Positions 4,883 to 21,415 of a stretch of DNA of 64,000 nucleotides are shown here, in pieces. The notes under the pieces were generated by a model. It had not been told where the DNA came from. It saw nothing but the letters and a program-made list of their open reading frames with translations, and made no database searches. The number at the start of each line of letters is the position of its first letter. Position 1 is the first letter of the stretch. Both the position numbers and the translations under genes were made by a program. Source of the DNA: Lumbricus rubellus (Eukaryota; Annelida; Clitellata; Crassiclitellata; Lumbricidae). The DNA lies in NCBI GenBank assembly GCA_945859605.1, contig OX243822.1, positions 7,652,856 to 7,716,855 on the forward strand, in the 5' to 3' direction.

Positions 4883-5162
4883 TAGATTAAACACTGTCCT
4901 TTCACTGCTAGCAATATACGGTAGGCCTATACGTTCTTAAAATAATCAATCCCACAGTTTAGGTCTACATCAATAAATGAATAGGCCCAAGTCTACTATG
5001 GTTTCAATCAGGTAGGCCTACTAACAAGTGCATATACAAACAAAAAGACAAACTTTAGTTGACAGTACTGTTGTTAACACATTGAAGGCCTATGGTAAAT
5101 AGGCCTAGGCCTATGCACGTTGCTGTTGAAAACTGGTTAGTCAGATACAGGCTTTGTTTGTA
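4883..5162. other. Gene-free spacer, nothing recognised
   Basis: AT-rich sequence with TAGGCCTA words and no gene or repeat that I can identify. Confidence 0.45.
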
Positions 5163-5490
5163 TGTGCACTTGTTATAGCGCCCCTTCAAGCTCTCTCTCT
5201 CTACTCAGAGGCGCTCCCGATGCAGAGCGGACACTGCATCGGAAGTAGTAGTTAATCTTCGCTTCTGGATGTCTTTTATTATTTCCTGAGGGGGGTGCTC
5301 GGTAGTACAGTGGATAGCGCGATGGACTGTCGACCAAGAGGTCGGGGGTTCAATTCTCCGCCGGGGCAGAAATTTGTAACGAGATTTCTGTTCCTCTAGC
5401 CGACTCAGCTATGATGAGTACACGGTCAGTGGATGATGAGACGGTGAGGGAGAGGATTGGTCACTGCCCTCTGGATGTCTTTTATTATTT
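5163..5490. mobile_element. SINE-A tail followed by a second tRNA-derived SINE (SINE-B)
   Basis: Positions 5163-5236 are the SINE-A tail in minus orientation. Positions 5293-5490 form SINE-B on the plus strand: a tRNA-like head (GTGCTCGGTAGTACAGTGG...), a box B-like GGGGTTCAATTCTCC and a tail ending TGTCTTTTATTATTT. The same composite, including the linker AGTAGTAGTTAATCTTCGCT, occurs in inverse orientation at about 21006-21275. It borders the Polinton on the left. Confidence 0.7.
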
Positions 5491-5622
5491 CGATCAGCAA
5501 GGAAATTAAGGTCGTAAGAATACTGCCGAAAAGTCTCTAGCGAATATATTTAGTGCGATGTGTGAATAAACGAATATCTCGAGAAAATCGGTGTTGGTTA
5601 CAAAAACTATGCTACAACCGGT

Positions 5623-6579
5623 TTAATTGTTATGCGCAGCTCCCGTACCCCCTCCGCCCGCAATTTGCATGTAATTCGCTCCATTTTTATACAGGTAGAC
5701 GTTACCATGAGCGGTATTAATGTCACAAAATTCTATATACGTCGAAACCAAATAGTATCCGGCTTTTCCGGGAGTGACACGAGTCAGTCTCGTACTTATA
5801 CCAGCATCGGTTTGGAATCTTACACTATCGAAAGAAACTCTTGTGTGAGTTTTAGCGTCTATGGCTTGACGAGTTAAAGAATGAATGCTAAGCGCGGGAC
5901 CGATTGTGATAGAATCTACATACTGCTTCGTAGCTGCATCGCTGGCGCTGTTGGGATTGTGTAGACCTGTAATGTAACCATCATGCATAAAGATGGTTGT
6001 ATGCACATTTATTTGAGATGAAATATTGTATTGCGTCGACTTAACCATCTCTAACATGATTTCATTGTTTATTCTAAAACGAAATCCATCCATCGATTGT
6101 AATGTAATAGGATTGTTTAACGAACATTGTAGTTTATTTCGTATACTACCTAAGAAAATAGTGAATTCTTTATTATCTCCTCTCAAGTCCTTACAACCCA
6201 TTGAACGCAGACGATCGGAGCCAACGTTTAAGATTAGATCACCAGTCATGGTATCACCAGTTTTAGACACCTTCAATGTAACTTGTTCATCAACGTATTT
6301 CTTATTCGTCAAATGATTATCGTTGGACGGTGAATCGTCGTGATTCGTTATCAAATCAATTGCTTGACCACGACTTAAGGCTTCATCCATTCCTGCTGTC
6401 GAAGTGTTCGTTGTAGGTAGTCCTTTAATTTTGTGACCACCCATTTTTAAATTTCCAGTCACTGGATTTGCTCCATCCAATCGAAGAAAACTCTCATTTA
6501 TTTGACTAAGAGTAACACCTCCAGCGATTACTCTTTGTGATGAACTAACATCGGTGTGACCAAATTTATCGACGGGCAT
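5623..6579 (-). CDS. Fibre-like protein with C1q-like head (Polinton)
   Basis: The 318-residue protein looks like a trimeric spike. Residues 1-165 resemble phage and virus fibre shafts, with NLKMGGHKIKGLP and a second GDLILNVG segment. A DAATKQYVDS motif at about 210-220 is typical of tail-fibre repeats. The last ~90 residues (VSFDSVRFQTDAG...GYYLVSTYIEF...VYLYKNGANY) resemble a C1q/TNF-like jelly roll, probably a receptor- or glycan-binding head. C1q domains are usually ~130 residues, so the head may be truncated at the stop at 5623, close to the element's left edge. The N-terminus and shaft are shared with the neighbouring gene at 6609-7718. Function is inferred from similarity by eye. Confidence 0.75.
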   Translation of the reverse strand: MPVDKFGHTDVSSSQRVIAGGVTLSQINESFLRLDGANPVTGNLKMGGHKIKGLPTTNTSTAGMDEALSRGQAIDLITNHDDSPSNDNHLTNKKYVDEQVTLKVSKTGDTMTGDLILNVGSDRLRSMGCKDLRGDNKEFTIFLGSIRNKLQCSLNNPITLQSMDGFRFRINNEIMLEMVKSTQYNISSQINVHTTIFMHDGYITGLHNPNSASDAATKQYVDSITIGPALSIHSLTRQAIDAKTHTRVSFDSVRFQTDAGISTRLTRVTPGKAGYYLVSTYIEFCDINTAHGNVYLYKNGANYMQIAGGGGTGAAHNN

Positions 6580-6608
6580 ATTATATATATAATAATTTTT
6601 AATGCAGA

Positions 6609-7718
6609 TTAGTCATCGTATACATATAATTGCATTACCTGAATCCCTCGTGGAAGATCAATATCCTCTAACAGTACTGTAACTCTGTAATATTGATACG
6701 CACCCATAGGTCTAGTAATATTACAAAATCTCGGAACAGCCGGTGAATTCGTTGAAGAAAGGTCTAATGGTAGGTCTACAAACACTACTCCGTCTATGCT
6801 AGCGGATAAATTCCAAGAAAGTATAGATACTGTTTTCAACGCAATTCTCCAAATTTTAACTGGCTCAGGACATTTAATTTGTAACCAAGGAATCATATTA
6901 TCTTCACCCGAAACCCAAGCTGCGTTAACATCGTCAGTGAGATTAGCGAAAGCATGGTAGGCTTTGCTTCCGGAAAAACAAGAACTGGCACTAGCAACAA
7001 ATCCTGTCACACTTACATCAGCTTCCAAGGGAGGAATATATCCAACATGGCACTTTTTCAGAGATTTATCGACGTAATTCTTTGTAGCGGCATCTTGAGC
7101 TGAAAGAGGATCGCTTAAATCGTTGATATTATTACTATTCATTAGGATATTTTGATAAACGTCGATTTTTCGATCGTTAGACGCTCTACCGATTCTCATT
7201 ATATTTTCTACACCCATTTTGCATAGAAATCCATCCGTCGATTGTAATGTAATAGGATTGTTTAACGAACATTGTAGTTTATTTCGTATACTACCTAAGA
7301 AAATAGTGAATTCTTTATTTTCTCCTCTCAAGTCCTTACAACCCATTGAACGCAGACGATCGGTGCCAACGTTTAAGAACAAGTCGCCAGCCATTGTATC
7401 ACCAGTCTTAGACACTTTTGAAGCATCAACGTATTTCTTATTCGTCAAATGATTATCGTTGGACGGAGAATCGTTGTGATTCGTTATCAAATCAATGGCT
7501 TGCCCCCTACTTAAAGCTTCATCCATTCCGGCAGTCGAAGTATTCGTTACTGGGAGACCTTTTATCACATGTCCATTCATTTTTAAATTTCCAGTCGGCA
7601 GATTTGCTCCATCACATCGAAGAAAATTAGCATTTATTTGACTAAGAGTTACACCTCCAGCGATTACTCTTCGTGATGTTCCTCCAAAATCGGTGTGACC
7701 AAATTTATCGACAGGCAT
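6609..7718 (-). CDS. Fibre-like protein with discoidin-like head (Polinton)
   Basis: This 369-residue paralogue of the previous gene shares residues 1-~170 (start MPVDKFGHTD, shaft motifs, SMGCKDLRG...EFTIFLGSIRNKLQC). After DAATKNYVD at about 215 it diverges. The C-terminal ~140 residues (VTGFVASASSCFSG...AWVSGEDN.IPWLQIKCPEPVKIWRIAL...YQYYRVTVL) match the pattern of an F5/8 type C (discoidin) carbohydrate- or lipid-binding domain. It therefore keeps the same anchoring end but carries another head. It lies 29 bp from the gene at 5623-6579, with the same AT-rich leader before its start codon. Capsid attachment through the common N-terminus is inference. Confidence 0.75.
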   Translation of the reverse strand: MPVDKFGHTDFGGTSRRVIAGGVTLSQINANFLRCDGANLPTGNLKMNGHVIKGLPVTNTSTAGMDEALSRGQAIDLITNHNDSPSNDNHLTNKKYVDASKVSKTGDTMAGDLFLNVGTDRLRSMGCKDLRGENKEFTIFLGSIRNKLQCSLNNPITLQSTDGFLCKMGVENIMRIGRASNDRKIDVYQNILMNSNNINDLSDPLSAQDAATKNYVDKSLKKCHVGYIPPLEADVSVTGFVASASSCFSGSKAYHAFANLTDDVNAAWVSGEDNMIPWLQIKCPEPVKIWRIALKTVSILSWNLSASIDGVVFVDLPLDLSSTNSPAVPRFCNITRPMGAYQYYRVTVLLEDIDLPRGIQVMQLYVYDD

Positions 7719-7737
7719 TTTATATATAAAATAATTT

Positions 7738-8160
7738 TTAATGCAAGCCGTTTATAACTTCTTGGAAATTCATTCCATCACCCACCATCTTCGTCACATA
7801 CAGACACAAATGACCACAAAATACTTCGTTATCGGGTTGTATTCGCTCACTGTTATATAACACTGGACGGCGTAAATACTTTATCAGTTCCAGAGGGGGA
7901 GGAAGGCCGTAACTATCGAAATATATTTTCTCATTACCGCTCTTTAAGAAAGCGCACCAATGCTGACCGGTTCCTTTAGAATCGTCTAGATTCAATATCC
8001 CACATTCAATCCGTCTAGGTTTATTCGGCAGCTCGTCTCGCACGAAAACGCCTCTAAAATTCGGAATATTCAGCTTCTTCGCGGCATCCAATAATTCAAA
8101 ATTCGTTAACGGATGATTTGGAAGAACTACTCCACAAACATCGATTTGTTTGACGCTCAT
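7738..8160 (-). CDS. PRO: Adenovirus-type cysteine protease (adenain-like)
   Basis: The 140-residue protein is predicted to mature virion proteins. The catalytic pattern is visible: His67 in GTGQHWCAF, Asp82 in YFDSYG, Gln108 in RIQPD and Cys115 in FCGHLC. These are spaced as in the adenain/C5 peptidase family, though the protein is shorter than the ~200-residue adenovirus enzyme, as is usual for Polintons. It lies 20 bp upstream of the discoidin-head fibre gene and 5 bp after the polymerase stop. Likely substrates are the small proteins encoded at 13590-13943 and 15389-16030, which carry matching cleavage motifs. Confidence 0.92.
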   Translation of the reverse strand: MSVKQIDVCGVVLPNHPLTNFELLDAAKKLNIPNFRGVFVRDELPNKPRRIECGILNLDDSKGTGQHWCAFLKSGNEKIYFDSYGLPPPLELIKYLRRPVLYNSERIQPDNEVFCGHLCLYVTKMVGDGMNFQEVINGLH

Positions 8161-8164
8161 TTAT

Positions 8165-11100
8165 TTAATATAAACATTGATTAAAAATTTTCAACGAGTA
8201 GTGACCATATGCCAAAGTATGAATTCCATCCTCCATTATTACCCGTTTATCGTCATCTGCAGATAATGCAACTTTATTGATTTCTTCTGTATAAATATCG
8301 TGATGATAAGATCTAATAACATTCATCGTTCGTTGTTGTTCTTTTTTAGTAAATAAACAGTCTCTATAATCTTCGTGAGTAATAGTTTTCTGGACAACAT
8401 TCTTCTTAATACCTTTACATTTCTTGTGCTCATCTCCAGCAGCCATCTTATAAGAATACAACTTTGCTCTGAGTCCAATAAATTCTTTTATCTGTTTCCC
8501 ACTAGCTTCATCCTTGAACATTCCAATAACTTTTTTATTTACTCCAACCTCAATACCAGATGGATGATCTCTCGGGTATTCACTCGTGTCGAATCGAGTC
8601 TTAATATCGCCTGCGATATCTGAGTAAAAGTCTTCAGTTTTAATTTCGTATGTCAAAGAATCTGTATCGGTAAATAATAATTTAGCTCTATTTCCGTATT
8701 TATCCTTGATGTAATTGTAATGAAATTCATACATCAACGTTTTGCTCAAGTCTAATATACACATGCCAAGATATATAGGTTTATTATAGTACAATTTAGT
8801 TTTTTTCATGTGAACGGCTATTAGATTTTCATCGAAAATAGTACATCTCTCATAATTAGGTTTAGCGGCTAGTTCAATAGCCCTCTCCTCTTGACACACT
8901 AACTCTACATCAACACGATTTTCAATGTTCTCACAAGTTTTTCCAAAGACACTGTTATTCATTAATTTGAAAAAGTCTTTCTCAAAGTCATTAGTAGCTT
9001 TCGTTCTAAGAGCTGTATTTAAATCGATATACTTTTTCAACCAATCACTTTCTTCGAATAGTACACCTCTATGCACTTTTGTTATTTTCAAACCCAAGCT
9101 CTCATACAGCTTCAGATTATCGTAATGCAGCACATACTTCTTTTTATGGTTTAAGTTTGGAATTAACTTTTTGACTTTGTTAATCTCAATGCTTTCGGGG
9201 GCTAACGGAAAATCGTTATGCAGGTCGTGTAACTCTTTAGGATATTCCAAATCAACTTCCAATATGCATGGAATACTTCTCCAATTATTTAATTCATCTT
9301 CGTTCATCCATTTGAACCCGTGAGTAGGTAAATTTTTGATCATAGCCCATCCATATAGATTATTCGCATCCAGGTAAGTAATAAATGTAGAATTTTCGTT
9401 ACTATTGAAATCGCTCATATATTTATTATTCGCTTTCCCGTAACGATTTGATATTGTGCTCACTCCTCCTCTCATCCCTTGCCTAAGCATCAGAATCATA
9501 TCATAATCATTCAATAACTCCAATTTCACGCCTGTCAATTTTAAAGCGGCATCCCAGGCTAAACCAGGAGATGTAAAATACCATGCAGGGTCAAGCGTAT
9601 AGTTCTTCATACACACATCTCTAAAGTTTTCGAAAACATCGGCAAGTAACAGAACATCCGAAACGTTGTATAAATCGTGATATTCTCTGAATGTTTTGCA
9701 TCCAAATTCCTTCCATACCGTTTTTGCATGCTCGTAGTCTTCATCGCTAATATTCGAATCATTTAGCTTAGAATAGAATGCGGATTTTGGTGGTAGTTCG
9801 GTTTCATTAAAGGTAGTAAATGAATCGACGTAGTCATAAGGATATATGCCTTTTCTCAGCAAAAGATCGAGCTTCTTTCCAGTATATCGTTTCCCAATAT
9901 TTTTACACTGGTCTTTGCTTAGGTTCCTCGATAAAGCATCAAGACTAGAAGCCATAAATTTAAAACTGTCGATAAAGCGCAATTCGCGCTTGACGGTAAT
10001 CTCTTTTCCCTCTTTATTTACAAACTTATCAACAACGACCTCTCTGCTAAAAGATATATACTTTTCCTCGTTATTAGGTATGCAATTAATTTTCTCTCCA
10101 TTATTACCTCTCAGTTTCTTAATGAACAGATGACAATCGTACCCGGAAAGATTATGAAACACTACAGGGAAAAACTTGGGGACTTTATAGTTTACATTAC
10201 AAATGTTATGAGCAGCCCCTCTAAATTTACCGCTAAGATGACAGTGATCTCTCACTCGGTCTTCGCCCAACGGTTTTTCACAGATATGGCATATAGTAGC
10301 TCCATCAAAACACTTCTTGTCCTCTTCTGTAAATATCATCTTCTTAGGGAATTTAAATTGATTATATATTTGTTTTATATTCTCTTCTAGTTTATCTACA
10401 AATATTTGACCAACATCATCATCTTCGCTTTCAGCCGTAAACGTCACAGGATCTTGAGAATATACACTATCGTCGAAACATTTTATGTGGTAACAAAAGG
10501 AGCTAGGAATATGCTTTTGATATTTATTAGTGTACGACAACTCTGGATTTGGTTGGCATGTATCGATCGGTTTTACAAAAGACTCAAAATCTGCGTAGAC
10601 TATAAACGGAACCCTCATAGAATTGTTATAATTTTTAAAACTTAACATAGTTCCTTTTTCTGGCATTTCTATTTTTTGTGCGTTATGGTGTTTGCAGTAC
10701 TCATTATGGTTGTTAAGCGCTTCTGTCGTTGTGAAACCATTCATACACCTTTTACAATAGTGCGCTGAATAATGCGAATTTGCTGTTCGGAACGTCATCA
10801 ATCGGTTAAAATTCTTTATCCAGCAATAATGTTTTTTTTCTCCATCAGATATAAGCAAAAGATCTACACAAATATCGCTTTCACAGTTAGACAGATAAAG
10901 CGGATAGACATGTTTTTCGTAACCAAATATATTAACACTAATATTATTATTTCTCTCAAATTTACCTATCACATTAGCATGAGTCGCTACCGGAAACTCA
11001 ATACCACTCCAATTAAGTTTTTTCGATTGTTCTTTCAAAGCTTTCGTTATTTTTTCCGGATTTTTTACAACCGGATTCAAAGCTCTAGTGATACACCATT

Positions 11101-11851
11101 TGAAACATTCTTCGTCGTCGTTTTTCATATTTATAATAGCCTTTTTATTAGCTAAGAAGCTGGGAAGTGGAATGTAAGAACTACCTCTTAAGGGGGTATA
11201 TTTTACCGTATTTATATCTAATTTTACAACAGCTTTAAATCTCCAATTACTTCCTTGCATCTGAAAACTAGCAATAGACTCCATGATTTTGTCTTTCTTT
11301 CTGCTGTATATTTCATTCAAGTCGGTTGCTTCTAAAATAACTTCTGCCCTGGAAACGAATGGTATATCCTCAGAAGTCACTATTCCAGATTTCATATCTA
11401 CTCGTTCCATAGTACAAGTAAGAACCAAATTAGTCTTTGTCTGGCGATTACTCGACAACAGATTAACTACCTGCGGTCTGACGAAATTAAGAAACGACGA
11501 GGCATCCATTCCATTAATTCCATCTATTCTATATTGCTTGGTAAATCCTTTAATAGCCGACGCCGTTTCTCGAATTTTAGTTTTATCAAATATCCTGGAA
11601 ACAGTTGACTTCAACGATTCGAGTTTTTCATTAACTGCTTTATTATCTCGTTCGGGTACATAACTAAGTAACCAATCCGCAAAATCATTTAATTTAGCTC
11701 TAACCCTATTTTTGTATTTTCTCTTAGGCGCTACTGGTTTGTATTTACCAGGTGTGGGTGTAAGCGTAGGAACCTTAATGTCAGGAACCGATGAGTCGAG
11801 CAAGTGTTCAACATGGTTCATGTTTCTTAAACTACTTTTCTTTAAATCCAT
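8165..11851 (-). CDS. POLB: Protein-primed family B DNA polymerase
   Basis: The 1228-residue uninterrupted polymerase should replicate the element by protein priming. Exonuclease motifs are FIVYADFESF (~residue 420), HNLSGYDCHLF (~567) and YNVSDVLLLAD (~729). Polymerase motif A is YLDANNLYGW (~830), motif B is KLMNNSVFGKT (~964) and motif C is FTDTDSL (~1061). A C2H2-type zinc site (CKRCMNGF...HNEYCKHH, ~375-395) precedes the exonuclease, and an HNH/endonuclease VII-like zinc segment (CHICEKPL...RDHCHLSG, ~520-545) is inserted between ExoI and ExoII. The long N-terminal ~370 residues may include the priming region (inference). All catalytic aspartates are intact. Confidence 0.96.
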   Translation of the reverse strand: MDLKKSSLRNMNHVEHLLDSSVPDIKVPTLTPTPGKYKPVAPKRKYKNRVRAKLNDFADWLLSYVPERDNKAVNEKLESLKSTVSRIFDKTKIRETASAIKGFTKQYRIDGINGMDASSFLNFVRPQVVNLLSSNRQTKTNLVLTCTMERVDMKSGIVTSEDIPFVSRAEVILEATDLNEIYSRKKDKIMESIASFQMQGSNWRFKAVVKLDINTVKYTPLRGSSYIPLPSFLANKKAIINMKNDDEECFKWCITRALNPVVKNPEKITKALKEQSKKLNWSGIEFPVATHANVIGKFERNNNISVNIFGYEKHVYPLYLSNCESDICVDLLLISDGEKKHYCWIKNFNRLMTFRTANSHYSAHYCKRCMNGFTTTEALNNHNEYCKHHNAQKIEMPEKGTMLSFKNYNNSMRVPFIVYADFESFVKPIDTCQPNPELSYTNKYQKHIPSSFCYHIKCFDDSVYSQDPVTFTAESEDDDVGQIFVDKLEENIKQIYNQFKFPKKMIFTEEDKKCFDGATICHICEKPLGEDRVRDHCHLSGKFRGAAHNICNVNYKVPKFFPVVFHNLSGYDCHLFIKKLRGNNGEKINCIPNNEEKYISFSREVVVDKFVNKEGKEITVKRELRFIDSFKFMASSLDALSRNLSKDQCKNIGKRYTGKKLDLLLRKGIYPYDYVDSFTTFNETELPPKSAFYSKLNDSNISDEDYEHAKTVWKEFGCKTFREYHDLYNVSDVLLLADVFENFRDVCMKNYTLDPAWYFTSPGLAWDAALKLTGVKLELLNDYDMILMLRQGMRGGVSTISNRYGKANNKYMSDFNSNENSTFITYLDANNLYGWAMIKNLPTHGFKWMNEDELNNWRSIPCILEVDLEYPKELHDLHNDFPLAPESIEINKVKKLIPNLNHKKKYVLHYDNLKLYESLGLKITKVHRGVLFEESDWLKKYIDLNTALRTKATNDFEKDFFKLMNNSVFGKTCENIENRVDVELVCQEERAIELAAKPNYERCTIFDENLIAVHMKKTKLYYNKPIYLGMCILDLSKTLMYEFHYNYIKDKYGNRAKLLFTDTDSLTYEIKTEDFYSDIAGDIKTRFDTSEYPRDHPSGIEVGVNKKVIGMFKDEASGKQIKEFIGLRAKLYSYKMAAGDEHKKCKGIKKNVVQKTITHEDYRDCLFTKKEQQRTMNVIRSYHHDIYTEEINKVALSADDDKRVIMEDGIHTLAYGHYSLKIFNQCLY

Positions 11852-11908
11852 TTTATCTTACCACGCAAAAATATTAAAATCCATAATACACTTCAATTTC
11901 ATACCTTT

Positions 11909-12238
11909 CTATCTCTCATACACTTTAATTTCGTATCTATCTCTCCAGACATTTCCGTTATGATAAGCTATGATGCCAGCACTCTGACCATACGCCTTAG
12001 CAGCTTTATACATCGATGGATACGAGGTAACAACGCCAGTCTCTCGATCTATAATATCTACTCTTCTCGGTTGTTTCCTGATACTACCCAACGTGTCATG
12101 TCTATATGACACAGACTTGTAGTCCGTCGGAAGAATATTCTTTTCAATCAATACAGCTATCATTTGAGGTTTGTTGAGATGCGAAGTGCCTGTAACATCG
12201 TGATGCTTGGCTAACATTCTAAGCTCTGGTAGCTTCAT
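11909..12238 (-). CDS. Small SAP/NUMOD-like DNA-binding protein
   Basis: The 109-residue protein starts with a SAP-like helix-extension-helix (LPELRMLAKHHDVTGTSHLN, then PQMIAVLIEKN). Its C-terminal half (DRETGVVTSYPSMYKAAKAYGQS) resembles a NUMOD1-type helix-turn-helix. Both are DNA-binding modules, so a role in regulation, replication or packaging is plausible but not shown. It lies between the polymerase and the major capsid gene on the same strand and starts directly after a TATATATT leader. Confidence 0.6.
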   Translation of the reverse strand: MKLPELRMLAKHHDVTGTSHLNKPQMIAVLIEKNILPTDYKSVSYRHDTLGSIRKQPRRVDIIDRETGVVTSYPSMYKAAKAYGQSAGIIAYHNGNVWRDRYEIKVYER

Positions 12239-12254
12239 AATATATAAGTATTCT

Positions 12255-13565
12255 TTAAATCAATTTTCCATACACTACACTCATTTTCTGCCCATCCGAT
12301 TGGAACTGCAGCAACCTATCTGAAATTACGACAGCATACGCTTCTGTGTCGGCTGGCACTGCTGCATTGAAAAGAGCCTTAATCTGAATATCAACGACTG
12401 ACGATTTCAAACGCTCGGATTGTTTGCTTACATCGAACACGAACAACGGATATAATTCTTTATAATCAACAGGTGTTATATTTCCTTGCGTAATCAACTT
12501 ATCCATACCATAGAATTTTTGACTAAAGGAGGACGCGTCTCTGTACGCTCTGGAGAATTGTTGATTAGGAAACGATAGGTTATGATCTACAGCTGGATAT
12601 CTTTCTTGATTCATCATAACATAAATGTTCTTGAGATCACAGTGATTAAAGAGTGCTGGATTACTTTCCTGATTACCGCTACGGTCCGTCTGAAATCCAA
12701 CGATGATATATCTAGGTTTCTCAGGTGATGTTTTTACGCTAAGACGCCAACTGAAACTTGTCGACTGAGGAACTGTTATAGTGTCGCATTGACGAGCTCT
12801 ATACGCAACTGGCAACGTTAATTTTGATTCAATCGTCTTATACAACTGCATTCGTTCCATGTCGGAAGGAATAACGTGCGGAATAAACCATGAAATTTTG
12901 TTTATCGCAACTTTTCCAGCAGCTGCAGCGTTATCTCGGAATATTGCATCATCGTCCGCTTTACGAACTAAAGTCAGCGTCTGTTTGAAGCCGTAAATAA
13001 TCTTGTCGTAATCATCGCAAAACCCGAAAATATGCTTCAACGGAACAATAAAGCTGAACATTCCTTTAGTGTTTGGTTTGCGAATGAGAAAGCTTTGTCT
13101 AGTGGCAAATCCGGGGTTATCCGCAATAACAGCAGTCGCTGCAGTGTCTTTATACCACAGCTGATTTAAGCCTTGAGTCAACTGAAAATCGTTTGGATAC
13201 GTAAGTAAACCGAGCATCGTTGTAGCTTGACCCGGATGAAATAGCGTTTCGATTTCTTGATTAGATAACTGATAGGATATTTGACTGAATAGATACATAA
13301 GCCCATTATTCGTAAGAGCGACTAAATCGGCATTAACGTATGCGGTGTCATCGGCTTTAATTAGTCTTCCTTCGAATTGTAGATATGACTCTGCTGGGTG
13401 ACTGTATAAGTCTTGTAATTCAATATTTATTCTTATTTCACCAGAACTGTTAAGGTTAGTTCTCGCTACAGGTTCGTACTCGTGCCATTCGTATCGCTCG
13501 ATACCTTCATCGATCAGTGGTTGCTCTGTGAATCTTAGAATATCGGATTGCATTTTATTATACAT
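12255..13565 (-). CDS. MCP: Major capsid protein, double jelly-roll (PY type)
   Basis: The 436-residue protein sits where Polintons encode their hexon-like major capsid protein. Recognisable features are the N-terminal EYEPVARTNLNSSGEIRINIE strand region, FEGRLIKAD, the LVRKADDDAIFRD segment and the C-terminal VVDIQIKALFNAAVPADTEAYAV with a final GKLI. It should form pseudo-hexameric trimers in an icosahedral shell. The reading frame opens at 13565, but the second ATG at 13553 lies directly behind a TATA-like ATATGTATAATAAA leader of the type seen before neighbouring genes, so translation may start there. The fold assignment rests on family pattern and context, without a structure search. Confidence 0.88.
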   Translation of the reverse strand: MYNKMQSDILRFTEQPLIDEGIERYEWHEYEPVARTNLNSSGEIRINIELQDLYSHPAESYLQFEGRLIKADDTAYVNADLVALTNNGLMYLFSQISYQLSNQEIETLFHPGQATTMLGLLTYPNDFQLTQGLNQLWYKDTAATAVIADNPGFATRQSFLIRKPNTKGMFSFIVPLKHIFGFCDDYDKIIYGFKQTLTLVRKADDDAIFRDNAAAAGKVAINKISWFIPHVIPSDMERMQLYKTIESKLTLPVAYRARQCDTITVPQSTSFSWRLSVKTSPEKPRYIIVGFQTDRSGNQESNPALFNHCDLKNIYVMMNQERYPAVDHNLSFPNQQFSRAYRDASSFSQKFYGMDKLITQGNITPVDYKELYPLFVFDVSKQSERLKSSVVDIQIKALFNAAVPADTEAYAVVISDRLLQFQSDGQKMSVVYGKLI

Positions 13566-13589
13566 ATATTTTTAAATAAGAAAATATAT

Positions 13590-13943
13590 TTAAGCCATTT
13601 TCAAACCACCTCCGTTTAAACGTTTTACGAGATCTTGAATTCTAATAGCTCCACCCGTCATTTCTGGATTCGATCCTAGTAATCTAGCTAGAATGACTTT
13701 AGTTTCCTGAGTTATCGGCTGCTGAACGGGAGCTTTAGGGAGTATCTTATTGAGTAATCGTTTTCCAACGTCGATCGCCTTATCCTTAGCAACACTCCCA
13801 ATCTCTTTGACGGCTGTGCTCGCAATTTGTTTGGCTGCATTCGATGTCAGTAGTCTCTTGAGAAATCCTGCAATGGAATCGAATATTCCTGCTCCACCGA
13901 CAACGTGTACTTTTTTATAACTTCTTCTCGCAAGGACCAGCAT
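13590..13943 (-). CDS. Small basic virion-type protein with adenain sites
   Basis: The 117-residue basic protein is dominated by amphipathic helices (GIFDSIAGFLKRLL, residues 19-32). Three motifs fit the adenovirus-protease consensus: VVGG-A (14-18, loose), MTGG-A (95-99) and LNGG-G (109-113, both strict). A basic leader, a cleavage site and then an amphipathic helix recall adenovirus protein VI, a membrane-active internal capsid protein. This analogy is inferred from architecture, not sequence identity. It is encoded directly upstream of the major capsid gene (24 bp). Confidence 0.6.
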   Translation of the reverse strand: MLVLARRSYKKVHVVGGAGIFDSIAGFLKRLLTSNAAKQIASTAVKEIGSVAKDKAIDVGKRLLNKILPKAPVQQPITQETKVILARLLGSNPEMTGGAIRIQDLVKRLNGGGLKMA

Positions 13944-13950
13944 TTCTATA

Positions 13951-14020
13951 TCATCAATTTTTAAATTAGATCATCAATTTTTAAATTAGATCATCAATTT
14001 TTAAATTAGATCATCAATTT
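13951..14020. repeat. 20-bp tandem repeat between two Polinton genes
   Basis: Three perfect copies of TCATCAATTTTTAAATTAGA run from 13951 to 14010, with a partial fourth to 14020. The array overlaps the last codons of the gene at 14006-14905 and forms the leader of the gene ending at 13943. It may have copied a gene-end/leader unit. Confidence 0.9.
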
Positions 14021-14905
14021 TTTATATTCATCTTTGGTTATCACTCCCTGTCTTAGTAACTCATCCGTCATACCTACAATTTCATTTCTTACTCCTGTAT
14101 TTCCCGCTTTGTAGCTATATATTCGCAACTCTAATTGTTTTACTAATTCGTTAGGATCTGAAGGAATGGTAATTATTCCGCTTCCTGTTTTACCTCTTAA
14201 CTTCATGTAATCGTCCCATATGGGTTTTATTATCTGTTTATATTTTACACTTCTAGACGATTTAGGTTTGTTTGGTTTATTTGGCTGACTCATGGCATTC
14301 GTTTTAGTTAGAATCTCGGCGTATTCTTCGAGATCACGATTATCATAAATTGATCTGTTTGGACTAGCTAACGTTAACAATTCCCATAATCCTGGAGTTC
14401 CTTGATAAGTTGTGGTTCCAACTGTAATATCATTTCCTTGGATTGAGGTTTCGCTGTCACCGATGTAGAATTTTCCATCTCTTGATCTTAATCCGAATGT
14501 TGTATCCACAAGTCTTCTATCGGAAGCATATTTTTTAAGGTATTCAACTGCAATATTTCCTAATTCTAACCTTCTAATGTCTTCTACTGGGTCATCGTCA
14601 TCGTACGCCTCTATAGACGGATACTGGGGAAATTGAATGGTTTTCAACGAATCTGGAAGTGATTTTAGAGCGAGTGATGTTGCTGCAGAGTTATCTTTTA
14701 TTGTCGACAGCAAAGCGTTTTGTTCTTTCGAAATTGCTGATTGAGAGTCGACTATTGGTTTGTAGATTTTCGTTAATTCTCGTTGAAGTCCAAGATCATC
14801 TATTCTCTCTGAGAGAAAGTTTTGTTTAATATTTTTTTTCGTTTTTAAAAACTCTTCGATAATAAAATCTCTTTTTGCAGGATCGCTAATTTTCAGTAGT
14901 GACAT
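14006..14905 (-). CDS. Conserved Polinton protein of unknown function
   Basis: The 299-residue protein has a coiled-coil-prone N-terminus (residues 1-75), an acidic patch EAYDDDDPVED (~100-110), and a central domain with TFGLRSRDGKFYIGDS and TTYQGTPGLWELLTLASP (~170-190). The GTxGLWxLLT signature is, to my knowledge, widespread in invertebrate Polinton-encoded proteins without a known role. A Pro/Lys/Asn-rich linker (MSQPNKPNKPKSSRS) follows. The C-terminus is helical. Position among capsid genes suggests a virion component or assembly factor. Confidence 0.6.
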   Translation of the reverse strand: MSLLKISDPAKRDFIIEEFLKTKKNIKQNFLSERIDDLGLQRELTKIYKPIVDSQSAISKEQNALLSTIKDNSAATSLALKSLPDSLKTIQFPQYPSIEAYDDDDPVEDIRRLELGNIAVEYLKKYASDRRLVDTTFGLRSRDGKFYIGDSETSIQGNDITVGTTTYQGTPGLWELLTLASPNRSIYDNRDLEEYAEILTKTNAMSQPNKPNKPKSSRSVKYKQIIKPIWDDYMKLRGKTGSGIITIPSDPNELVKQLELRIYSYKAGNTGVRNEIVGMTDELLRQGVITKDEYKKLMI

Positions 14906-14921
14906 TTTTTATTATAATGTT

Positions 14922-14984
14922 TAAAACGTAACGTAAAACGTAAACGTAAAACGTAAACATAAAACGTAAACGTAAAACGTACAC
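14922..14984. repeat. Tandem AAAACGTAAACGT repeat upstream of the 299-residue gene
   Basis: About five degenerate copies of a 12-13 bp CGTAAA-rich unit fill the gap between the genes at 14006-14905 and 14986-15372. It could be a promoter or replication element, or slippage in a leader. This is the longest non-coding gap in the virion cluster. Confidence 0.8.
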
Positions 14985-14985
14985 G

Positions 14986-15372
14986 TTATGCATCGTAGTA
15001 ATTAACATAACATATGGAGTCTTTTTCGTTTATAGTAACTGGTGAATCTGAGTTGTTTTGAATTGTAATTATTATATCCTCTGCGTCCTCTAGGACAGTA
15101 CCATCTTGAAGACTCAGTCTGAGTTGTTTCAACTTCTGTCTAAGAGAGACTAGACACATTCCACTGGTCATTCGGACTCCAAGGCCTACTTCTACTGTAA
15201 TATTTGTCTTTGGTTCAATCGTTATCGCTTGCTGAGCAAAAATCTCATATCTATCGCCTGCTCGTTGTCTTGCAGGAGCGTGAGTGACCACTTTAGGCAA
15301 CCAAATTATTGTACTCACACGAGGCTTCCGTTTGGTGATAAATTTGTGTATTGGGTGACCGTATCCAGACAT
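14986..15372 (-). CDS. dUTPase-fold-like protein
   Basis: The 128-residue protein has an arrangement like trimeric dUTPases: YEIFAQQAITIEP (~43-55), TVEVGLGVRM (~59-68), then GTVLEDAEDIIITIQNNSD and a final EKDSICYVN. The positions corresponding to the catalytic Tyr-containing motif are not conserved, so it is probably non-enzymatic. It begins MSGYG, which fits the adenain consensus. The alternative is a virion protein with an unrelated beta fold. It is in the capsid cluster, 16 bp from the next gene, after a TTATATAA leader. Confidence 0.45.
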   Translation of the reverse strand: MSGYGHPIHKFITKRKPRVSTIIWLPKVVTHAPARQRAGDRYEIFAQQAITIEPKTNITVEVGLGVRMTSGMCLVSLRQKLKQLRLSLQDGTVLEDAEDIIITIQNNSDSPVTINEKDSICYVNYYDA

Positions 15373-15388
15373 TTATATAAGAGATTGT

Positions 15389-16030
15389 TTAAAGTAACAT
15401 TCCAAGAATAGGAATATTTTTAAATGGTGAATTGGGACCAAGTATAAGACCTTCACCGCTGATATATCCTGTTCCTCTTTTCATAAACAAACCAGAACCC
15501 GTTATTGAAGTACCCTTTTTCCACGGAGATAGAAAAAGACCTTCCCCAGCAGGTCTTATCTTACAGCATATTCCTCCTTTCTTTACGTAGAGCACGCCAG
15601 ATCCACTTTGTGAGATCGAAGATCCACTCATCTGTGAGATCGAAGATCCACTAATTTTATCGACAATTTTGGAACCAGCTGCAGAACCCAATCCTGTTAA
15701 GGCTCCTGTGGCTAAACTCGGAAGAACACTAGACAGAAGAAACTTTCCGGCTGTTGCTAAGAACGGTAGAATAGCGCCAATAAATCCGCCTTCGACTCTC
15801 GCATTGTCTTCTAATTGCTTTTTACCCATTTTAATTGTCAAACCAGTTCCATTCTGATACGCTTTAGTTAACTTGTTAATTTGCCTCTGGTTTAGAGCTA
15901 ATACGTGCTCACCAGTTATATCTCCATGAGAAAGTCTTATACTCACTCCAGTTCCTACTTGAACAGCTCGCTTAATCTTCTCTTTTTGCCCTTCAGAAAT
16001 ATTAACTTTGACCTTAGCGTAAGCGCTCAT
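15389..16030 (-). CDS. Glycine-rich virion-type protein with hydrophobic segment
   Basis: The 213-residue protein has two N-terminal repeats ending in QVGTGVSIRLS (24-34) and QNGTGLTIKMG (59-69), a long hydrophobic stretch at about 82-118 (FIGAILPFLATAGKFLLS...), and a C-terminal string of GSG-type motifs. At least six pentamers fit the adenain pattern: QVGTG, QNGTG, LTGLG, QSGSG, ITGSG and ISGEG. Such proteins are common in Polintons and resemble adenovirus core/membrane-lytic precursors. It likely enters the particle and is cut by the element's protease (inference). ISGSS/MSGSS is duplicated at 127-138. Confidence 0.65.
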   Translation of the reverse strand: MSAYAKVKVNISEGQKEKIKRAVQVGTGVSIRLSHGDITGEHVLALNQRQINKLTKAYQNGTGLTIKMGKKQLEDNARVEGGFIGAILPFLATAGKFLLSSVLPSLATGALTGLGSAAGSKIVDKISGSSISQMSGSSISQSGSGVLYVKKGGICCKIRPAGEGLFLSPWKKGTSITGSGLFMKRGTGYISGEGLILGPNSPFKNIPILGMLL

Positions 16031-16054
16031 CTTATATTAAATATAAACTTTAAA

Positions 16055-16828
16055 TTAAACCTCTCTTATGTGAAATCGTATCGACAATTCCTCACCTCTT
16101 AAATTAATTAGTTTTCCATTTTGGTCTATTAGTTTTGTTTCCATCGATGAAATAGAGTATAGCGTTATTGGAAGATAAACCAGATTATGAGGAGATTCGA
16201 TTATCTTATAACCAGGCCCGACCGATGGAAAGAAAGAATAAATTATGTTCTCCGTAGTTCCGTTGGCATACGATGATCCTATTATATCACTGGTAACACG
16301 TAAACTATTCACGCTGTTTATATCGACTATGTGCTCGGATTCGTTATATCCTTCGGAGTATACACGACTCTGAAATCCTAGAACGGTGCTAATTGAATTT
16401 GGTACTGTAAAATCAACTTTATAGTTCTCATCAATTTCCAAAACAGCCTTCAAAGTATTGTTATTTGGTTGCAACTTTATACATTGACCATGACCTTCTT
16501 CCTTTAAAATTCTCTGTATGTATTCGTTTAAGTCATCGATTTCATAGCAACCGGTTGGAATGTCTAAATCTTTCCACGTTACACCGTTATCTGACGAATA
16601 TACAAATTTATTATTTGTTTCGTCTATATTAGGAAAACTGTAGTACGTTTCAAGATTAACAAGGGCCATTTCATAAGTTTTACTTTTGTCCAGTTCGATT
16701 AGTGGATTAAATTTCGTTCGAATTCGTGTGCTCCTTTCGCTCAACAAAATGCAAAAGGATTCTTTAGCTTCTGTGTTGCGTGCAATCGTTTGAGTAGTAG
16801 ATAAAATTTCGTCAAGAATGGTTTCCAT
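16055..16828 (-). CDS. Penton-like minor capsid protein, single jelly-roll (PX type)
   Basis: The 257-residue protein carries a pattern typical of Polinton minor capsid proteins: TKFNPLIELDKSKTYEMALV, then YYSFPNIDETNNKF, and GCYEIDDLNEYIQRIL (residues ~35-120), followed by beta-rich sequence. It is predicted to form the vertex pentamers. It lies between the packaging ATPase and the glycine-rich protein on the same strand, consistent with a capsid operon-like cluster. Assignment is by recognised pattern and context. Confidence 0.82.
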   Translation of the reverse strand: METILDEILSTTQTIARNTEAKESFCILLSERSTRIRTKFNPLIELDKSKTYEMALVNLETYYSFPNIDETNNKFVYSSDNGVTWKDLDIPTGCYEIDDLNEYIQRILKEEGHGQCIKLQPNNNTLKAVLEIDENYKVDFTVPNSISTVLGFQSRVYSEGYNESEHIVDINSVNSLRVTSDIIGSSYANGTTENIIYSFFPSVGPGYKIIESPHNLVYLPITLYSISSMETKLIDQNGKLINLRGEELSIRFHIREV

Positions 16829-16894
16829 TTTAGATAGCTATTTTTAAACCTAGAATATAAAATCTTAAATTTTGTTATCATTTTATTATTGCTT

Positions 16895-17671
16895 TTATTT
16901 AATGTAAAATGTATCTAATCCAGATCTGTACCTGCCCTTATTTGTTTTACTAGTAAGGTCTATAACCACAAAACCATGCGTTTCATCCCACGCAGTTTTG
17001 CATAGTTTTCGAAATTCTTCAATAGTCATATCATCTACGCCTATATGATCGCTGTATATATGATTAATATTTTTGAGGTCTTGAGGGAATAGACATATAA
17101 AGTTAGCATTCTCTCTTATAGTTTGTCTAGGTAGCTTGAAATAATTTTGTGCTAGGTAAAAGCAGTCTACATTACTATGCCTACCTCTTATATAATACGA
17201 TTCGCATTTATTTTGTCGCTCTAACTGTAAATCATCAAAAATCATGAGATTCTTCTTATCTCGACTTAAGTCTCGTGGATCTGGAACATCTTCAGAGGTT
17301 TCAAAGAACTTGCATTCTATATCCGATTTCTTTTCCATGTTTTTAGACATTTCCTCGACTACGGCGGTCGGTGATACATTTAATTTCATTATCTCATCGC
17401 GATTATCAAAAAGTCTTATAATTGCTTCCTTTGGTAATTTCTCTTCGAATGCTTTCTTGAGTATCTTGTATTCTGATTGAAAAAGCGATTTTCCAAAGAT
17501 TTGCAAGTTATCATAGTCTAACCAACCAGGTCTCAGTAATAAATTAAGTAGTAATATTGTCTTGCCGCATTGAGACTTACCGACGATCAAACCTCTGATG
17601 CTTCTTGGTAGGAGAGGACTGTTAAAGCGTTTAGATGTATCTTCATTCCACGATAGGTCTTGGACTTCCAT
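16895..17671 (-). CDS. ATPase: Genome-packaging ATPase (A32/FtsK-HerA type)
   Basis: The 258-residue P-loop ATPase shows Walker A VGKSQCGKT (~31-39) and Walker B NLMIFDD (~140-146), followed by GRHSNVDCFYLAQNYFKLP, a sensor-like segment typical of viral packaging ATPases. It should pump the element's DNA into capsids. It starts 20 bp from the divergently transcribed phospholipase gene, so the two share one tiny AT-rich promoter region. Confidence 0.93.
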   Translation of the reverse strand: MEVQDLSWNEDTSKRFNSPLLPRSIRGLIVGKSQCGKTILLLNLLLRPGWLDYDNLQIFGKSLFQSEYKILKKAFEEKLPKEAIIRLFDNRDEIMKLNVSPTAVVEEMSKNMEKKSDIECKFFETSEDVPDPRDLSRDKKNLMIFDDLQLERQNKCESYYIRGRHSNVDCFYLAQNYFKLPRQTIRENANFICLFPQDLKNINHIYSDHIGVDDMTIEEFRKLCKTAWDETHGFVVIDLTSKTNKGRYRSGLDTFYIK

Positions 17672-17691
17672 TTTAATTATATTATATTAAA
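17672..17691. promoter_or_regulatory. Bidirectional AT-only promoter between ATPase and PLA2 genes
   Basis: The 20-bp gap consists only of A and T, is nearly palindromic (TTTAATTATATTATATTAAA), and has an ATG on each side. Comparable TATATAA-like strings directly precede the starts at 6579, 7718, 8160, 12238, 13553, 15372 and 16030. That supports a compact element-specific promoter design. Confidence 0.55.
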
Positions 17692-18249
17692 ATGGAGCAC
17701 AGCTCGTATTGCGTAAAATGTAAGCGACAAACTGAGTGTAGAGATATTCAACGAGTTGTCAGTAAGAATGGCAGACCTATGCTTAGATGTGTATGTGTTG
17801 AGTGTGGCGCTAGAAAAACTCAGTTTACTAAAATGTCCACCGCTACAGGTGGTGATTTGGTCTCAGCTCTCAATTCTGCTACTTCTAATATTAAACTTCC
17901 ATGGGCAAAGTACCCTGGTGAACTACATCTTCCAGGACATTCTTTCACGGGTCCAGGAACTCGATTGGATTTGCGATTGAATAGTGATGGAACACCTAAA
18001 GACTGGAGCAAACCAGTAGATAGGGTTGATGCAGCAGCCTACCGTCACGACCTAGCTTACGCTAAACATACTGATACAGCAGGGAGAAACGTCGCTGACA
18101 GAGCTATGATAGATGAATTAAATAATATACCTAATCCTTCTTTCCGCGAACGAATTGAACGATCTATAGTTAAACCAATTTTATCAACGAAAACCCATTT
18201 TGGAATGGGGTTGAAAAAAAGCTCTGAGATGGACAGACCAACTTGCTGA
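17692..18249 (+). CDS. PLA2: Zinc-ribbon/phospholipase A2 protein (Polinton)
   Basis: The 185-residue protein starts with a zinc ribbon (YCVKCKRQ...CVCVECG, residues 6-40) followed by a phospholipase A2 core. The calcium-loop-like FTGPGTRLD lies at ~85-93, and the catalytic HD pair is in DAAAYRHDLAYAKH (~112-125), the layout of parvovirus-VP1-type PLA2. It probably breaches endosomal or other membranes during entry (inference from family). The frame stops at 18249, in a region where the integrase frame is already open. The two frames differ by one base and overlap at an A7 run (18214-18220). Confidence 0.8.
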   Translation: MEHSSYCVKCKRQTECRDIQRVVSKNGRPMLRCVCVECGARKTQFTKMSTATGGDLVSALNSATSNIKLPWAKYPGELHLPGHSFTGPGTRLDLRLNSDGTPKDWSKPVDRVDAAAYRHDLAYAKHTDTAGRNVADRAMIDELNNIPNPSFRERIERSIVKPILSTKTHFGMGLKKSSEMDRPTC

Positions 18250-19144
18250 CGAATTGCATAAACCTATAGTCAGGAAGTTCAGGAAGCGAGTTGTTTATGT
18301 TCAGGGAGTGGACAGAATTTGGGCGGGTGACTTGATTGACATGCAGGCTTATGCTAAATTTAATTCTGGGGTGAAATATTTGTTAAGTGTTATTGATATA
18401 TTTTCCAAGTATGCATTTATTCAGCCGTTAAAAGATAAGCGCGGAGAATCTGTGGCAGATGCTTTCGTTAAAATATTTAATACGAGCAAAAGAAGGGGTG
18501 AAAAACTTTGGGTCGATAAGGGAACAGAATTCTATAATAAACAGGTAAAATCATTAGGTATGCAGTTGTACTCAACTGAGAATGAAGAGAAATCTTGTAT
18601 CGTAGAAAGATTTAATAGAACAGTAAAAGAGAAGATGTTTAAATATTTTACAGCAAACTCAACTCAGAGATATATCGATGTTTTAGATAATATGGTTAAT
18701 TTATACAACAACACAAGACATTCTTCCATTAAAATGACTCCTGTTAAAGCGAGTATCAAAGCAAACGAATGGGTTGTGTGGATGAATCTGTATGGTGATG
18801 CTGTACCTGAAACTGTTAAACCTAAATTTTCGGTAGGAGATAAAGTAAGAATTTCTAAGAAGAAAAAGACATTTGAGAAAGGCTACACAAATCGTTGGAC
18901 ACAAGAAATTTTTACTATAACACAAATCCAATACACAGACCCTATAACCTATAAAATATCTGACTATCATGGAGAAGAAATAAAAGGGACATTTTATGAA
19001 GCTGAACTGCAATCGACAACGCAAGATACATTTAAAATAGAAAAGATTATAAGAAAAAGAGGAAATCGGACTTTGGTGAAATGGTTAGGCTATGATGATT
19101 CATTCAATTCATGGATTGATAATAAAAACTTGATGTCATTGTGA
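18215..19144 (+). CDS. INT: Retroviral-type integrase with chromodomain
   Basis: The frame is open from just after a TGA at 18212-18214 to the stop at 19144. Catalytic core: Asp in WAGDLIDM, Asp in LWVDKGTEF and Glu in CIVERFNRT. The second Asp and Glu are separated by 29 residues, fewer than in the classical DD35E spacing. The C-terminus (FKIEKIIRKRGNRTLVKWLGYDDSFNSW) is a chromodomain, which may steer insertion to chromatin marks. No ATG lies in this frame before the core. Conserved-looking residues WTDQLADELHKP already precede the TTG at 18254, so a normal start is missing. The A7 run at 18214-18220 is where a one-base slip would link it to the upstream frame. Confidence 0.92.
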   Translation, partial: KKALRWTDQLADELHKPIVRKFRKRVVYVQGVDRIWAGDLIDMQAYAKFNSGVKYLLSVIDIFSKYAFIQPLKDKRGESVADAFVKIFNTSKRRGEKLWVDKGTEFYNKQVKSLGMQLYSTENEEKSCIVERFNRTVKEKMFKYFTANSTQRYIDVLDNMVNLYNNTRHSSIKMTPVKASIKANEWVVWMNLYGDAVPETVKPKFSVGDKVRISKKKKTFEKGYTNRWTQEIFTITQIQYTDPITYKISDYHGEEIKGTFYEAELQSTTQDTFKIEKIIRKRGNRTLVKWLGYDDSFNSWIDNKNLMSL

Positions 19145-19925
19145 ATTTAACTGATTTATAGCTTCTACAGCGTCATGCCCCAACTTATTAATTATACTAC
19201 TACTCAACGATTTTCTCTTCAGAACGCAGCGATGGGCTACCTGCCTATCAGATTTGGCTAAAGAATTCGACGATAGTCTATTTGAGTCTGTAGGTAGGAA
19301 CCCGTATCCCTCTAATAATTAGACAAAATATTAGCCTATTAGACAAAAATTATAAGTCTGCTTGCTTACATGACGGGGGATAGTTTTTAACGGAGAAATG
19401 TCTATTGATCGCCAGCGATATGCTTGACTAAGTGCGAAGGTATAGAACTGGTTTGTGTTGTAGCCTATCTATATAGGCCTAAGCCTAGGGGCGTTGCCAA
19501 GTTTTTGCAAACGTCGTGTGCTTGTTGATTTTGTTTCTCGGCTAAAACTCCAGTTGTTTTACTTAAGTTTAGTTAAGTATTCTTGTAAGCTTATTCGTTT
19601 CGCTGCTGTTGTGGTCATTTCCGAAGACTCTGCACTATGCATGAAAAATCGTAGGATAGGCCTACAGGTTGTATGTTAAACGAGAATTATATATTTCGGA
19701 ATTAAGTCTCCATGATTACGATCGTTTTTCGAAGCTATAGCCTATTATTTTATATAGATGAAACACATTGCTCTTGCATATAGGCCTACGTATAGCTACT
19801 GTAACAGACGACTGATTGATTTTGAACCGATCTCGTGGTCGTTGTGGTTTATTTTGAGCTCCCCTACACGGGAATTAATTATGCTAATCGTTGCTTGACA
19901 TGTACCGTAGAGAAATCTTCCATTC
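19145..19925. other. Right Polinton flank, nothing recognised
   Basis: I see no reading frame with coding character. I compared this stretch with 5490-5625 in inverse orientation and found only a 10-bp match (GAGAAAATCG, 5580-5589 against about 19207-19217 inverted), too little for a terminal inverted repeat. Confidence 0.5.
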
Positions 19926-20246
19926 TGTGCGTGTATTTGTGTCTGTGTGTGTCTGTCTATGTGTATGTGTGTCTGTGTACTGAGACCTATTGCATATAAT
20001 AATTATCATACTGTAGCCTAAATAGCCTGCATAAGTGTTTGCATGTCGTCTGCACAGAACTTTAGACCTATTCGCCACGCGGCGCTACCGTACGGTAGCA
20101 GCAAGCTAACGAACAGTGAACACTAATAACTATGATTATTATAGGTCTAGTTACTGTTGCTGTTTCGTGCTGCGTCTGTCTATATGTCTGTGTCTCTATC
20201 TGTGTGTCTCTCTATCTATGTGTCTGTGTGTCTCTCTATCTGTGTG

Positions 20247-20328
<82 letters not shown>

Positions 20329-20337
20329 TGTGTGTGT
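19926..20337. repeat. GT-rich microsatellites, including pure (TG)n at ~20250-20325
   Basis: Interrupted TG/TCTG repeats occur at 19930-19985 and a long TG tract at 20164-20337. Reading frames of alternating Cys/Val or His/Thr here are artefacts. Confidence 0.95.
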
Positions 20338-20890
20338 GGCTGATGACTACTGGCAAACAGCGATTTTCTTTTGCGTCTTAACAACCTTGACCCCTGAAGT
20401 TGTACCTCTCGTACAATGGTGACAAGATTTGTTTGCGGAGACGAAAACGGAAGTTGGGGGGACGACTTCAGGGGTGAAGGACGAATTTTGTTCAAATTGC
20501 ATTGGGTATAATAAGATTTAGTCACATTCTGTCACGTATAATAGGATTTATCGTATTGTGCCCCGTGCGAAGTGTCAACGATGTTATGGCTCGAATGCTC
20601 TTGGTAGTGGGCGTGTGGGTGTGTGTGCTGCTGCTACTGGCTGCTGCGGCTGTATCTACCCACACCTGCTGTCCGTTTATCACATGATCTGTGATGATGC
20701 AATGCGGAATATTCTAGAATCTTCAGCAACTGGCTATAAATACCTGAACACCGACCACCATTTTGTACTCGTTTCATTTTTCATCATTTTGAATGAGCGA
20801 TATGTCAGTTGAGATGAATAACCTTAGCTTATCCTTTAGCACCATTTAAACTTAATTTATCTTCAATATCAGGCTTCTTAAAAAATAGCT
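20338..20890. other. Gene-free stretch, nothing recognised
   Basis: Mixed sequence with no convincing exon, repeat family or RNA gene. Confidence 0.45.
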
Positions 20891-20949
20891 AAGTAATTAA
20901 TTATGCATCAGGAAAAATAATAAAATACCCCAAAGGAGAAGAGGAGGAA

Positions 20950-21415
20950 TCAGGAAGGAAATAATAAAAGACTACTAACCACGGTACTACCGAGCTATCC
21001 ACTGCACTACCGAGCACCCCCCTCAGGAAATAATAAAAGACATCCAAAGGGCAGTGGCCAATCCTCTCCCTCACCGTCTCATCATCCACTGACCGTGTAC
21101 TCATCATAGCTGAGTCGGCTAGAGGAACAGAAATCTCGTTACAAATTTCTGCCCCGGCGGAGAATTGAACCCTCGACCTCTTGGTCGACAGTCCAGCGCG
21201 CTATCCACTGTACTACCGAGCACCCCCCTCAGGAAATAATAAAAGACATCCAGAAGCGAAGATTAACTACTACTATCGGAGTTTCACGCCGAAGCGCTGA
21301 GCAATTGTAAATGAAGGACTTGCCCAAGGTCCTTACGCGGCGAGGTGGATTCGAACCTCGGACCTTCCGGCTCCAAGGCAACGACGCCACCACTAGACCA
21401 CCGCGCCCCACAAAG
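20950..21415 (-). mobile_element. SINE-B tandem plus SINE-A, minus strand
   Basis: Read on the minus strand: SINE-A head from 21415 (GGTTCGAATCCACC box B) to about 21276, linker AGTAGTAGTTAATCTTCGCT, a full SINE-B to about 21010, and the beginning of a second SINE-B. The linker plus SINE-B is an inverted copy of 5235-5490, about 15.5 kb away on the other side of the Polinton. Confidence 0.75.

Follow-up and report, generated by a model that had tools for sequence, protein, structure and literature searches.

The subject of this analysis is a 64,000-nucleotide stretch from the annelid Lumbricus rubellus (GCA_945859605.1, contig OX243822.1, positions 7,652,856 to 7,716,855), hereafter the window, in whose numbering all coordinates are given. 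It holds a complete 16,031-bp Polinton at 5244-21274, bounded by a pair of terminal inverted repeats (TIRs) and an exact 6-bp target site duplication (TSD). At one end of this element sit two adjacent genes, fibre A and fibre B, in which one stem carries two unrelated heads. We consider it likely that A and B are receptor-binding virion fibres of this Polinton lineage, whose heads are replaced over evolution while the stem stays constant, as happens in tailed phages.

One stem and two heads

Both open reading frames (ORFs) lie on the minus strand, with 29 bases between them. Their parts are as follows:

5623..6579, minus strand: fibre A, 318 aa, ending at an in-frame stop (5623-5625)
6082..6579, minus strand: fibre A stem, codons 1-166, from the A/B alignment
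5902..6081, minus strand: fibre A neck, ending in the phage-type motif AATKxYVD
5626..5901, minus strand: truncated head of fibre A, ending at the stop; C1q/TNF-like as judged through relatives
6609..7718, minus strand: fibre B, 369 aa, intact
7227..7718, minus strand: fibre B stem, codons 1-164, from the A/B alignment
7047..7226, minus strand: fibre B neck
6612..7046, minus strand: fibre B head, F5/8C

The common stem covers 164-166 residues and has 87% DNA identity (436/502 identities by blastn). Measured in 15-codon steps, the two genes share 69-96% of their bases across the first 112 residues of A, rising to 98-100% for residues 120-165 and falling to 39-67% after that; likeness breaks off abruptly at A codon 166 and B codon 164 (window 6082 and 7227). 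Around the AATKxYVD motif, close to residue 215, some fainter likeness persists, and the heads start beyond it. One stem bearing two unrelated heads in tandem genes is thus a confirmed observation, and the proposal of an earlier note, made from the letters alone, that these are tandem Polinton fibre genes with a shared N-terminal stem holds for a complete element bounded by TIRs and a TSD.

Relatives were taken as the best 120 of 189, 155 and 2134 matches, which gave 194 distinct proteins. Because they were selected for resembling A or B, the frequencies of heads among them are biased. Together with the two window proteins they form 196 labelled rows, in which F stands for F5/8C heads and C for C1q-like heads, while N, T, O, J and K are labels coined in this analysis.

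Head A is predicted to have the C1q/TNF jelly-roll fold, found through its relatives and with a model made from a relative rather than from fibre A itself. Head B is predicted to have the galactose-binding-domain-like fold of F5/8C domains (discoidin/CBM32-like), from profiles of relatives and an AlphaFold model. These assignments come in part from structure look-ups, in which a family absent from the listing is not thereby excluded. Among the relatives of A, 3/15 match PF00386 (C1q) at E<=0.1, the best at 2.9e-4, and one of the 15 gives a weak match (E 0.043) to PF08949, the C-terminal domain of the PRD1 spike P5. PF00754 (F5/8 type C) is matched at E<=0.1 by 43/52 relatives of B, with P0172 above the cut-off at 29.4. 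The earlier note had placed a C1q/TNF-like head in one gene and a discoidin-like head in the other; both folds were matched, and the possibility that both heads are one domain is ruled out (hhalign 0.25%).

Origin of the stem, neck and heads

The stem and neck of fibre A match the phage tail-fibre family phrog_8378 at 6.6e-10, and 34/52 relatives of B match phage tail-fibre families in the same region. The solved phage fibres 23sh gp9 and 8vbx gp47 are matched as well. With both PHROG tail families and PDB fibres in agreement, the stem and neck are, on sequence comparison, homologous to phage tail fibres.

For head B, phrog_16348 is matched by all 52 members. Its other matches are a bacterial GH92 mannosidase at 2.4e-10 and an Erwinia phage protein named putative carbohydrate binding at 31.6% identity. 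By fold, it resembles phage and algal giant-virus proteins. The viral and prokaryote genome contigs scanned held no close relatives of this head, so they identify no donor for it.

Probable duplication and conversion of the pair

Each fibre gene is preceded by a leader of 30 bases that contains a TATA-like stretch. With up to 3 mismatches, this leader has 2 matches in the window, one before each fibre gene and none elsewhere (mean 0.00 in 100 shuffles):

6577..6606, minus strand: leader before fibre A (TATA-like), including its ATG
7716..7745, minus strand: leader before fibre B, overlapping the end of the protease gene (final codons and stop)
6082..6222, minus strand: conversion-like tract in A, codons 120-166, with 3 mismatches to B in 141 bases

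The leader bases before A come after the stop of B, and the duplicated unit would most simply have started inside the end of the protease gene.

The conversion-like tract adjoins the point where stem switches to neck. Over residues 1-110, fibre A agrees with the relative P0056 at 108/110 positions and with B at 92/107; over residues 111-166, it agrees with P0056 at 32/55 and with B at 51/56. A and B differ at 52/348 positions ahead of codon 120 and at 3/141 from there on (Fisher 1.1e-5); the codon range (120-166) was picked after the profile was seen. The longest identical run, 82 bases, has a permutation p of 0.0013, which is independent of that range. Judged by these alignments, fibre A is a mosaic.

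Between A and B, the ratio of nonsynonymous to synonymous divergence (dN/dS) in the stem is 0.27. The stem dS in codons 1-110 is 0.39, far above the 4 differences in 248 positions between the TIRs. The fibre pair therefore seems to predate this insertion and to have been held under constraint, with the proviso that TIR divergence dates an insertion only roughly.

Head exchange among relatives

The 196 rows comprise 104 with F heads, 6 with F heads plus an extra insert (K), 20 C, 11 N, 3 T (2 with the insert), 1 O, 1 J, 1 with the insert only, and 49 with none, many of which are fragments. No row has C1q-like and F5/8C heads of these families together in one protein. Besides these two head types, the stem carries four more types of end domain without a clear Pfam assignment, which makes at least six head types with no mutual BLAST match at 1e-4. 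The N-terminal signature is present in 167/194 proteins. When C1q-headed and F5/8C-headed sets (6 and 11 sequences) are compared, residues 1-34 are as similar between sets (0.79) as within them (0.80 and 0.78), whereas the heads have a similarity of 0.17 between sets.

On a stem tree built from 98 of the 142 stem-covering rows (the 44 without a head label being omitted), C heads require 5 changes, with starred branches forcing 4; F heads require 8, with starred branches forcing 5; and N heads require one. Two pairs of relatives illustrate such changes. P0038 (F) and P0122 (C) are identical at 207/228 residues up to KYVD and then have unlike heads, and P0080 (F, partial head) shares 183 of the first 219 aligned positions with P0121 (C) before the two diverge. 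In both pairs, this is not the same joint as in the window genes. The suggestion that heads are replaced as in phage fibres is thus supported by the conversion-like tract, the several changes on the stem tree and the P0038/P0122 pair.

Relatives with named hosts include P0054 from Nematostella vectensis and P0172 from Dreissena polymorpha. A contig scan with the alignment A2 kept at least 80 loci out of 110 relatives, most of which matched only around residues 170-250, the site of AATKxYVD. Fibre B, the capsid protein and the putative polymerase, used as single-protein queries against viral contigs, gave zero relatives.

Some further observations concern individual relatives. The N head, seen in P0154-P0169 (eight aligned), supplants both neck and head right after about stem residue 75, and P0167 has no Pfam match. 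P0172 of Dreissena polymorpha bears this fibre stem, and a Dreissena C1q protein is also the metazoan neighbour used for the C1q heads of injection systems in the accessible part of PMC12923769.

The stop inside the head of fibre A

The frame of fibre A runs on past the in-frame stop for 38 codons plus a stop:

5506..5622, minus strand: C-terminal part of the C1q-like head, severed in this copy (38 codons plus stop; alone matches 15 relatives)

Searched alone, this piece has a C-terminal match in 15/196 proteins, including residues 315-352 of P0056 at 71%, and it spans most of the last three strands of the P0056 model (313-322, 328-334 and 338-351). C1q-headed relatives with complete C-termini exist. 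The stop may be an old change, a polymorphism or an assembly error.

Weighing the readings

If A and B are receptor-binding virion fibres, their workings can be sketched as follows. The conserved N-terminus (MPVDKFGHTD...) would be the fibre's anchor, with the capsid vertex as the likeliest site, and the stem and neck, with their phage tail-fibre-like build, would probably form a trimer. The C-terminal head would bind the cell; glycans or lipids are common ligands of folds of the F5/8C type. Tandem duplication of a fibre gene together with its leader, behind the protease gene, would have given the copies that now have different heads. Recombination within the common stem or at the neck/head joint would swap heads, conversion would keep the stem copies alike, and the two spikes may have served two targets.

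Several results weigh against this. Head A is truncated in this copy, which leaves fibre B as the sole intact one and the most that the copy could produce; the claim that the element encodes two spikes keeps its two genes and two heads but is weakened as regards two working spikes. Profile searches of the heads were similarly mixed: relatives match both families, but the window proteins stay below Pfam cut-offs, with no PF00386 match at E<=1 in the truncated fibre A ORF and a PF00754 score of 16.9 bits in fibre B (cut-off 28.2). The AlphaFold models are monomers with low confidence in the stem. The stem tree has 108 columns and comes from a quick search with the Shimodaira-Hasegawa-like approximate likelihood ratio test (SH-aLRT) only, leaving 48/92 inner branches open. 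Heads are also strongly clustered on it (9 changes in total, compared with a shuffled mean of 23.3), so exchange appears recurrent but not free, with heads mostly tracking stem lineage. Lastly, none of the 88 scanned loci matches other window genes (tblastn 1e-4).

The stop is also what one would expect if the pair were a tandem duplicate without use, its second copy decaying, with the two heads reflecting history and no switching or dual-spike system. We regard this as unlikely, given the constraint on the stem (dN/dS 0.27), a dS (0.39 in codons 1-110) well above the TIR divergence (4/248) that suggests the pair persisted before insertion, and the complete C-termini and recurring head changes among relatives. 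Another alternative is that the heads are captured animal modules, i.e., host C1q and discoidin proteins placed on a viral stem, as the earlier note had supposed when it spoke of host lectins. For head B, this is unsupported because its best-matching relatives beyond the family come from phages and bacteria; for head A, the profile match is to collagen X, and fold comparison gives phage and animal structures alike. Overall, we think such capture improbable. The proteins could instead be secreted or intracellular adhesins of the element, as virion location rests on inference and both folds are generally known in secreted proteins too. However, the stem and neck fall into families of phage tail fibres, the element encodes a capsid, and a constant N-terminus is combined with a variable tip, which leaves the adhesin explanation very improbable.

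We therefore return to virion fibres as the preferred reading. A broader version of it is that animal Polintons switch heads in the manner of phages, with at least six head types placed on a constant anchored stem, at times a tandem two-fibre array, conversion that keeps the stem uniform, and heads that give a dual host or tissue range. We offer this only as a tentative proposal, which may well prove too broad.

The question touched here is an open one, namely whether animal Polintons leave cells as viruses. A constant anchor with exchanged heads would be a virion trait, sensible only if particles must bind cells. The fibre family is a concrete protein to seek in particles, and it hints at how these elements could pass between hosts. 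It also offers a natural set of C1q-like and discoidin-like heads on one phage-like stem. If the head-switching proposal is true, such elements would be, or would until recently have been, viruses that are free and infectious, with cell attachment under strong selection.

Comparison with known systems

The closest resemblance in build is to tail fibres of tailed phages (PHROGs 8378, 1640, 2647 and 16348; PDB 23sh gp9 and 8vbx gp47), which share the AATKxYVD-type neck, the KTGDTMTG-type stem motif and modular C-terminal heads that include C1q/TNF-like and F5/8C-like folds. Unlike those fibres, the present ones belong to a Polinton (tailless icosahedral type), have the anchor MPVDKFGHTD and are encoded by small genes (318 and 369 aa).

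Adenovirus fibres are vertex fibres with a constant tail and a distal knob, and some members have two fibres. Compared by description, they are like the present pair in having a constant tail, a distal head and, in some, two fibres; they differ in shaft and knob. The PRD1 spike P5, whose C-terminal domain is PF08949, is a TNF-like spike of a tailless virus. The likeness here is the marginal match in that single relative of A, and the difference is that P5 has no demonstrated relation to the stem.

An avian adenovirus with two fibres appears in the available part of PMC12220804. The same part describes phage-like fibres in protist Polinton-like viruses, some with F5_F8_C, and discusses two different fibres per vertex. 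These are like the present fibres in being phage-like, in Polinton-like elements and sometimes F5_F8_C-bearing; their hosts are protists, and the domain sets described in that part do not include a tandem of C1q and F5/8C on one stem. Extracellular contractile injection systems have C1q-tipped fibres according to the available part of PMC12923769, which are likewise phage-derived with a C1q tip and interchangeable heads, but belong to bacterial injection devices.

Titles and abstract starts in the open-licence literature yielded no paper on animal-Polinton fibre genes, including tandem fibres with one stem and two heads, and terms for fibre, tail or receptor had no match in PMC11071308, PMC10120064, PMC4642659 or PMC4028283. 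As far as the available parts of the sources go, phage-like F5_F8_C fibres in protist Polinton-like viruses and C1q-tipped bacterial fibres are already known, and the tandem pair with one stem and two heads in an animal Polinton seems to be new.

The Polinton and its surroundings

The boundaries and other genes of the element are as follows:

5244..21274, no strand: complete Polinton, with a TIR pair and ATCGGA on both flanks
5244..5491, no strand: left TIR, outer end AGTAGTAG, 244/248 identical to inverted 21027-21274
21027..21274, no strand: right TIR, outer end also AGTAGTAG
12255..13565, minus strand: double jelly-roll major capsid protein (PF21738, 1e-57)
16895..17671, minus strand: A32-like packaging ATPase (PF04665, 4.6e-7, 30 bits against a cut-off of 22.8)
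17692..18249, plus strand: DUF5679 and phospholipase A2-like protein (1.8e-10 and 2.9e-10)
18254..19144, plus strand: integrase with chromodomain (rve 8.2e-7, Chromo 2.2e-4, both slightly below cut-offs)
8165..11851, minus strand: putative protein-primed DNA polymerase B, a 1228-aa ORF with motifs read by eye
7738..8160, minus strand: putative adenain-like protease, a weak match to protease S273R (E 0.012)

The 248-bp TIRs have AG/AGT-type ends as in Polinton/Maverick elements, and the perfect 6-bp duplication ATCGGA, also of Polinton/Maverick type, directly abuts both. In vertebrate Mavericks, AGT-type ends and perfect 6-bp duplications serve as marks (PMC8097293, in its available part), and the end motifs of the present element agree with them. 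A short interspersed element (SINE) inserted beside fibre A at 5244-5491 was considered and ruled out: its recurrence in inverted form at 21027-21274, together with the perfect 6-bp duplication, identifies this stretch as a terminal repeat.

The capsid protein and packaging ATPase are of the types found in Polintons, and the integrase was counted as a Polinton rve integrase with an rve score of 29.7 bits (cut-off 32.6); it also matches NCBIfam IS481 at 3.8e-16, below the cut-off. Its ORF starts with TTG, 4 bases past the stop of the DUF5679/phospholipase A2-like gene; the true start may lie elsewhere, or an N-terminal part may be lost or spliced. The motifs read by eye make the 1228-aa ORF a putative polymerase; Pfam, NCBIfam and PDB searches named no polymerase there. 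The putative protease had no Pfam or NCBIfam match. A 257-aa ORF (16055-16828) is a candidate minor (penton) capsid protein, for which Pfam gave a chance-level BNR match only.

Padloc gave no match, and ARAGORN found zero tRNA genes in 4500-22000; a tRNA-promoter-like stretch was read by eye in the terminal repeats. These repeats have internal sub-repeats (20967-21274 and 5244-5491), one of them 56 bp long at 96% close to the right end. Short tandem repeats, perfect or nearly so, lie between the capsid-region genes at 13950-14022 (20 bp x 3.7) and 14922-14986 (13 bp x 5.1). From the integrase to the right TIR (19145-21026), nearly 2 kb are without an assigned gene; this part includes a lengthy run of TG and, near 20735, a TATA-like stretch. 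Beyond the element, there are big minisatellites at 32069-32894 (38 bp x 21.6) and 50478-51469 (34 bp x 29.0).
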